Positions 16,333 through 22,344 of a stretch of 43,760 bases of DNA are shown piece by piece. Position numbers and translations under genes: made by a program. Under the pieces are notes generated by a model, which had not been told where the DNA came from, searched no databases, and was given only the letters and a program-made list of their open reading frames with translations. This DNA comes from Caulobacterales bacterium 32-69-10 (GTDB taxonomy: Bacteria; Pseudomonadota; Alphaproteobacteria; Caulobacterales; Caulobacteraceae), in NCBI GenBank assembly GCA_002280485.1, contig NCED01000034.1, forward strand, positions 1 through 43,760. Direction: 5' to 3'. How positions within the stretch are numbered: position 1 is the first letter of the stretch; each line of letters opens with the position of its first letter.

Positions 16333-19047
<2,715 letters not shown>

Positions 19048-19126
19048 CTGGCGATCGCTCGAAGGGGTTTGCCCGGGCGGGGGCGGCAGCCGCCTTATGT
19101 AATGCGCACAGCGGGCGATTCAGCAA

Positions 19127-19141
19127 GAACATTTGGCGAAC
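19127..19141 (-). promoter_or_regulatory. LexA (SOS) box upstream of uvrA
   Basis: The plus strand reads GAACATTTGGCGAAC, which is GTTC-N7-GTTC on the uvrA strand. This is exactly the direct-repeat LexA operator known from alphaproteobacteria. It lies 80 bases before the uvrA ATG, a natural place to overlap the promoter, and predicts DNA-damage induction. Confidence 0.88.
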
Positions 19142-19189
19142 GCGTTCGCGACGCCGCGAAACCTGCCTGTTCCGGAGGCGGTCGTCTTG

Positions 19190-19325
19190 TCCCTCCCCCT
19201 TGTGGGGAGGGTGGCCCGCGTAGCGGGTCGGGTGGGGGGAAGTGTCCGGCGAACGTCGCGGTTCCGCCCCACCCCGCTCGCGGGCCTGACGCCCGCGAGT
19301 CGCCCTCCCCATGAAGGGGAGGGAT
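19190..19325. repeat. Dispersed palindromic element, copy 1
   Basis: About 136 bases bounded by mini-hairpins: CCCTCCCCCTTGTGGGGAGG at the left and a CCCTCCCC-ATGA-AGGGGAGGG type arm at the right. The core contains GCGAACGTCGCGGTTCCGCC. A closely similar element lies at 22841-22960 in the opposite orientation. It occupies the gap between the uvrA promoter and the flbY stop. No coding potential. Confidence 0.82.
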
Positions 19326-19332
19326 TATGAAC

Positions 19333-21966: not shown

Positions 21967-22344
21967 ATGCAGACGACCGCGTCAGTAGTTCAGGTCGAAA
22001 CGCCTGATATTCCTGAAGGGTACCGTCCCGGGGAAGACGAACCGTTCATGAATGAGCGGCAGCTGGAGTATTTCCGCCGTAAGCTCCTCGGCTGGAAAGA
22101 CGATATTCTGCGCGAATCTCGCGAAACGCTGAGCCATCTGCAGGCTGAGACCGAGAATCACCCCGATATTCTCGATCGTTCCTCGTCAGAGACGGATCGG
22201 GCTCTGGAACTGCGCACCCGAGACCGCCAGCGCAAGTTGATCTCCAAGATCGACGAAGCCCTGCGGCGGATCGAAGACGGCTCCTACGGCTATTGGGCGC
22301 AAGAGCGTCATGAGCGCCGCGAGCGGGTCCACCGGGACGACTGA
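21967..22344 (+). CDS. dksA: DksA-type RNA polymerase-binding protein lacking its zinc finger
   Basis: DksA enters the RNA polymerase secondary channel and works with ppGpp. The start (MQTTASVVQVETPDIPEGYR) and the coiled coil, including FMNERQLEYFRRKLLGWKDD, ESRETLSHLQAETENHPD, and DRSSSETDRALELRTRDRQR with the tip, fit the alphaproteobacterial family closely. After IEDGSYGY (Y109) the chain goes to W110 and AQERHERRERVHRDD. Family members have about 24 residues there, beginning CEETGEP, that with the Cys pairs build the zinc finger. All four cysteines are absent, and the protein has 125 instead of about 150 residues. The reading frame is kept, so either a real in-frame deletion of about 72 bases or an assembly error is possible. 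Confidence 0.92.
   Translation: MQTTASVVQVETPDIPEGYRPGEDEPFMNERQLEYFRRKLLGWKDDILRESRETLSHLQAETENHPDILDRSSSETDRALELRTRDRQRKLISKIDEALRRIEDGSYGYWAQERHERRERVHRDD

Follow-up and report, generated by a model that had tools for sequence, protein, structure and literature searches.

A 69-base gap in a Caulobacteraceae dksA gene, accompanied by a private uvrA gap on the same contig, is more likely an assembly flaw or recent damage than a new kind of regulator

Introduction

DksA of Escherichia coli carries a four-cysteine zinc finger. A motif of this kind is described for DksA1 of Pseudomonas aeruginosa, and DksA2 of that species is reported with two cysteines and no zinc (PMC9213440). According to PMC9239242, DksA2 maintains its globular fold without zinc, and the zinc site is absent from Rhodobacter sphaeroides RSP2654 and Sinorhizobium meliloti SMc00469, yet both function like DksA and retain its other functionally important features. 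The same source describes for TraR a globular part contacting the rim helices and beta-prime Si3 of RNA polymerase, and a C-terminal helix contacting beta Si1. Before starvation, Caulobacter cells without dksA grow almost as the wild type does; afterwards they show an outgrowth lag (PMC11034885).

Here, we characterize a dksA gene on a Caulobacteraceae contig whose product is short by a single internal block. The analyzed stretch of DNA, referred to as the window, comprises 43,760 bases, contains no N and appears to be one whole contig.

Results

The dksA gene is located on the forward strand at 21967..22344 and was assigned via its open reading frame and the scores of its product, which reaches 105.8 bits against PF21157 (DksA_N, cut-off 27) and 97.9 bits against the NCBIfam equivalog TIGR02420, the latter below its cut-off of 115.5. 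PF01258, the finger-fold domain, was not found in it among families reported at E <= 10. The start was set at the ATG at 21967, whereas the list of open reading frames begins at an upstream TTG. The resulting product has 125 amino acids compared with 148-149 in its closest relatives, and ends in RIEDGSYGY, a tryptophan and AQERHERRERVHRDD. Protein alignment places this single tryptophan where relatives, as in P0005, have the 24 residues CEETGEPIGLARLEARPIATLSLE; 24 residues are gone and one tryptophan is created at the join, yielding a net loss of 23 amino acids or 69 bases, in frame. Alignment of the window gene with six relatives via MAFFT revealed a single gap of 69 columns, flanked by TATTG (22291-22295) on one side and GGCGCAAGAG (22296 on) on the other, and the join TATTG^GGCG on the forward strand (22291..22299, break at 22295^22296) has zero bases of ambiguity or shift against these relatives.

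Sequences on either side are intact. Both the coiled coil (residues 30-104; 22054..22278, forward strand) and the C-terminal segment (22297..22341, forward strand) are preserved in alignment with relatives and in the structural model, and across shared residues the protein is 96% identical to P0001. The first-pass annotation had described an in-frame deletion of about 72 bases, removing a block of about 24 residues ahead of the tryptophan and sparing the coiled coil and the C-terminal helix. The alignments bear out the in-frame gap, the absent block of 24 residues and the two spared parts, the helix being intact by sequence and predicted at residues 107-123; the length of the deletion is corrected to 69 bases. 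The tip (residues 67-72; 22165-22182) reads DILDRS, thus DxxDxS and not DxxDxA. This tip is common to six of 240 fetched DksA-family proteins (P0001-P0004, P0006 and P0007, with four of the 240 unscored), and since all six keep the finger, the deletion is not what altered the tip. DxxDxA tips are found in all 113 dksA open reading frames recovered from relatives' loci, DILDRS in none of them.

We then compared the lost segment across relatives. It is kept in 113 of 113 relative open reading frames, counted as one per locus for 113 of the 118 loci examined, some of which overlap the same genome; the remaining five loci yielded no dksA reading frame. Judged by these alignments, the gap in the window gene is not a chance difference. 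According to the summary tables of the genome searches, window DksA was matched in 379 of 390 Caulobacteraceae genomes and PF01258 in 376 of 388. The 12 genomes without PF01258 comprise the 11 without any dksA match and G097, and G097 does not qualify as a finger-less genome: Ns interrupt two of its three copies, and the third is distant and divergent. In a protein search focused on the join region, each of the best 120 of 8000 scored proteins carries PF01258, as do 119 of the best 120 proteins listed in a search with the whole protein. The exception, P0114, is the one among 240 DksA-family proteins without a finger, and it was rejected as a finger-less relative: with 113 amino acids and the ending GDYGSWQE, it simply stops at that point. 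Clustering of the protein database at 90% can hide short cluster members, as illustrated by window DksA itself, which is not listed although window UvrA (P0121) is. The first-pass annotation had held that a relative's sequence with the missing bases would speak against its reading. P0001, the 96% identical protein, carries the missing residues, which, on comparison of the sequences, makes the deletion the derived state and says nothing on whether it is real.

Another, complete dksA at a different place in the genome might cover the function and free the window copy, in line with the two to four PF01258 matches present in some Caulobacteraceae. By reading of the search table, however, exactly one dksA match (E <= 1e-5) is present in 376 of 379 matched Caulobacteraceae genomes, the others being G097, G116 and G226, and we regard such a backup copy as highly improbable. 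In G226, dksA appears in two overlapping pieces (L123, L126), as if frameshifted.

Cysteine content was scored in the same set of relatives. The first-pass annotation had counted all four cysteines of a zinc finger among the losses, but the lost 24-residue segment holds exactly one cysteine in 113 of 113 relative reading frames. The four metal positions read C-T-S-A in 110 of the 111 frames scored and C-T-T-A in the other one; the remaining two of the 113, with FGYC, were missed by the metal-position pattern. A four-cysteine finger of the form C-x2-C-x17-C-x2-C occurs in none of these 111 intact relatives. As relatives have a one-cysteine version, the deletion, to judge from their residues, is not the loss of a zinc-binding four-cysteine finger and removes no zinc module. 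The claim that a whole zinc finger had gone therefore stands for the finger-fold module only, in a lineage that differs in this respect from E. coli DksA with its four cysteines. A general loss of zinc proteins on the contig was also considered and rejected: by reading, CxDSR and HxxC motifs are kept in two carbonic-anhydrase-like reading frames of the window.

Comparison with solved and predicted structures places window DksA among known systems. AlphaFold predicts helices at residues 30-64, 71-104 and 107-123 of the short protein with moderate confidence (mean pLDDT 73.7, pTM 0.60), and a Foldseek search with this model has E. coli DksA (1tjl) as its top match (E 4.6e-4, TMq 0.59). For full-length P0001, the model shows a short helix at 119-123 and strand residues in between, with low confidence in this part. 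With E. coli DksA (1tjl, 5vsw), the window protein has the coiled coil in common (44% identity over 89 columns). Its coiled coil and C-terminal segment are also alike to those of Caulobacteraceae DksAs (P0001 and others of 148-149 amino acids, as the closest matches listed), which have the 24-residue one-cysteine module where window DksA has one tryptophan. Absence of the four-cysteine site is shared by the window lineage and the zinc-free proteins P. aeruginosa DksA2 (4ijj), SMc00469 and RSP2654. DksA2 nevertheless keeps its globular fold, whereas window DksA is without the finger-fold module; the two match in sequence (E 1.4e-8) and weakly in fold (E 0.056).

These comparisons bear on the idea that the short protein works. 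A coiled coil and a C-terminal helix might suffice for a reduced secondary-channel activity kept under selection; the preserved reading frame, the predicted helices with E. coli DksA as the top Foldseek match, and the lack of a four-cysteine metal site in relatives as well are all compatible with this. It is set against a deletion found in 0 of 113 relative reading frames, against contact residues for the rim helices and beta-prime Si3 that reside in the globular part of TraR (PMC9239242), and against a gap in uvrA, described below, that it leaves unexplained. We therefore consider a working finger-less DksA unlikely, and the stronger proposal, a natural DksA that lacks its whole globular body and acts via coiled coil and C-terminal helix alone, among relatives without a zinc site and with a DxxDxS tip, very unlikely. 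If the gap were real, the coiled coil and C-terminal helix would be kept, but not the body, which by analogy with TraR seats the protein at the secondary-channel rim of RNA polymerase; by the same analogy, the short DksA would be poorly seated.

A second private gap was identified in uvrA, 3 kb from dksA on the reverse strand (16333..19047). Its product has 904 amino acids and, in alignment with six full-length relatives, is missing 66 residues between APHD and EACQGDG that are present and almost unchanged in all six. DNA alignment locates the join at 16998^16999 (reverse strand), where 198 bases are lost with the reading frame preserved and a single base may represent microhomology; the two joins are 5.3 kb apart. 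Searching with relatives' proteins via tblastn gave a break or gap at the uvrA join in all seven references spanning it. In a search focused on the gap, 119 of the best 120 proteins listed (of 7999 scored) contain the lost motif and measure 962-997 amino acids; the sole listed protein without it, ranked first, is the window's own P0121 (904 amino acids). The lost stretch aligns unbroken to the solved UvrA structure 2r6f, a Geobacillus protein, and presumably contains the Q-loop as well as the second zinc module's first cysteine. With these elements gone, window UvrA should, by its sequence, be inactive. Elsewhere in the protein, the first zinc module (residues near 260-290) has the sequence CPVSG, as it does in the six aligned relatives, and so lacks the second cysteine expected from E. 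coli UvrA. The interval between uvrA and the flagellar genes (19048-19332) spans ~0.3 kb, compared with ~2 to 8 kb in seven fetched loci that have both.

The rest of the contig was analyzed gene by gene. Forty-three open reading frames had been picked automatically, some in wrong frames, and coordinates were then set for 30 genes; the comparison covered the window apart from ~14.1-16.3, 28.8, 30.7, 33.4-34.4 and 37-43.7 kb. None of the 30 compared genes has an internal stop. Among the 27 genes with at least two relatives, private deletions of at least 3 amino acids, as flagged by an automatic scan, are the 23 residues in dksA, 4 and 3 residues in a gene near 11.6 kb, 3 in gltX and 3 in a gene near 25.6 kb, such that, dksA and uvrA aside, private deletions in the 25 others do not exceed 4 amino acids. 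The scan left the uvrA gap unflagged, since three of nine references were partial frames at contig ends without residues there, and it might likewise miss gaps in other genes with partial references. Three genes show private insertions: dksA (4 amino acids, by reading at its variable start), a gene near 10.96 kb (5) and the one near 25.6 kb (4). Larger tblastn gaps occur in variable genes, namely serS (up to 58), a lipoprotein-like gene (51) and a tatB-like gene (up to 35); those of serS and the tatB-like gene are not private where at least two relatives were compared, and the lipoprotein-like gene had one relative. The lost dksA segment was not found relocated within the window (best E 0.11 among the matches listed), and for the lost uvrA segment the best listed match in the window (4e-4, 38% identity over 55 amino acids) was taken as chance. 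Towards the contig end, 41403-43759 holds three adjoining reading frames, the last one cut by the end, that by eye we presume to encode a Vsr-type mismatch endonuclease, a DNA cytosine methyltransferase and possibly a restriction enzyme.

Two deletions private to this contig, when none of the 25 other genes compared has a private gap above 4 amino acids, point to a single cause at the level of the contig, and such a cause can explain the clean 198-base gap in uvrA together with that in dksA. A faulty join, or a deletion in a read or library of a metagenome assembly, would produce both gaps. The contig is presumably a metagenome record whose gaps stem from assembly or library, not from the cell. 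An artefact is further suggested by the position of both gaps in conserved coding sequence 5.3 kb apart on one contig, by their absence from every relative examined, and by the lack of decay elsewhere among the genes compared. On the other side, neither gap disturbs the reading frame (a chance of ~1 in 9 for random lengths), the joins lack any overlap from which a collapse could have arisen (dksA without ambiguity, uvrA with one base), and no N marks the window. A specific version, in which the assembler breaks at the DNA most shared among relatives, is not supported for dksA: identity among relatives is 0.789 in the lost segment and 0.795 over the gene, and 49 of 104 windows reach at least the same conservation. 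In uvrA it finds weak support (0.884 against 0.824, with 124 of 907 windows at least as conserved). Overall, we favour an artefact over a real loss of function and give about an even chance that the 69-base gap in dksA is a contig artefact and not a feature of a working gene.

The same clean in-frame join without an N would also fit a real and recent deletion in a single strain that inactivates or cripples DksA, with uvrA broken independently. Without its globular body, DksA would be unseated from RNA polymerase and the strain would behave as a dksA mutant; in Caulobacter, dksA is dispensable (PMC11034885). The nearly unchanged remaining residues (96% identity to P0001) are as expected for a young event. 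Such a loss nonetheless requires two independent damaging deletions ~5 kb apart with the other compared genes undecayed, and a second carrier was not seen among the listed matches, though clustering at 90% could hide one. Real loss of function is accordingly a serious but somewhat doubtful possibility.

Discussion

A DksA freed of its finger, as first proposed for this locus, keeps its basis in so far as the module is removed from the sequence; the private in-frame deletion of uvrA on the same contig indicates artefact or gene damage and weakens the proposal. An assembly flaw or a recently broken copy is thus more likely than a new kind of regulator, and, pending a check of the reads, the dksA gap is best regarded as recent damage or as an artefact of the contig. 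At face value, this contig would suggest that a globular domain is dispensable for DksA. The similar gap in uvrA illustrates why losses seen on a single contig call first for support from reads. Should the dksA gap prove real, it would provide a natural test of which parts of DksA are required in a lineage that is already zinc-free.
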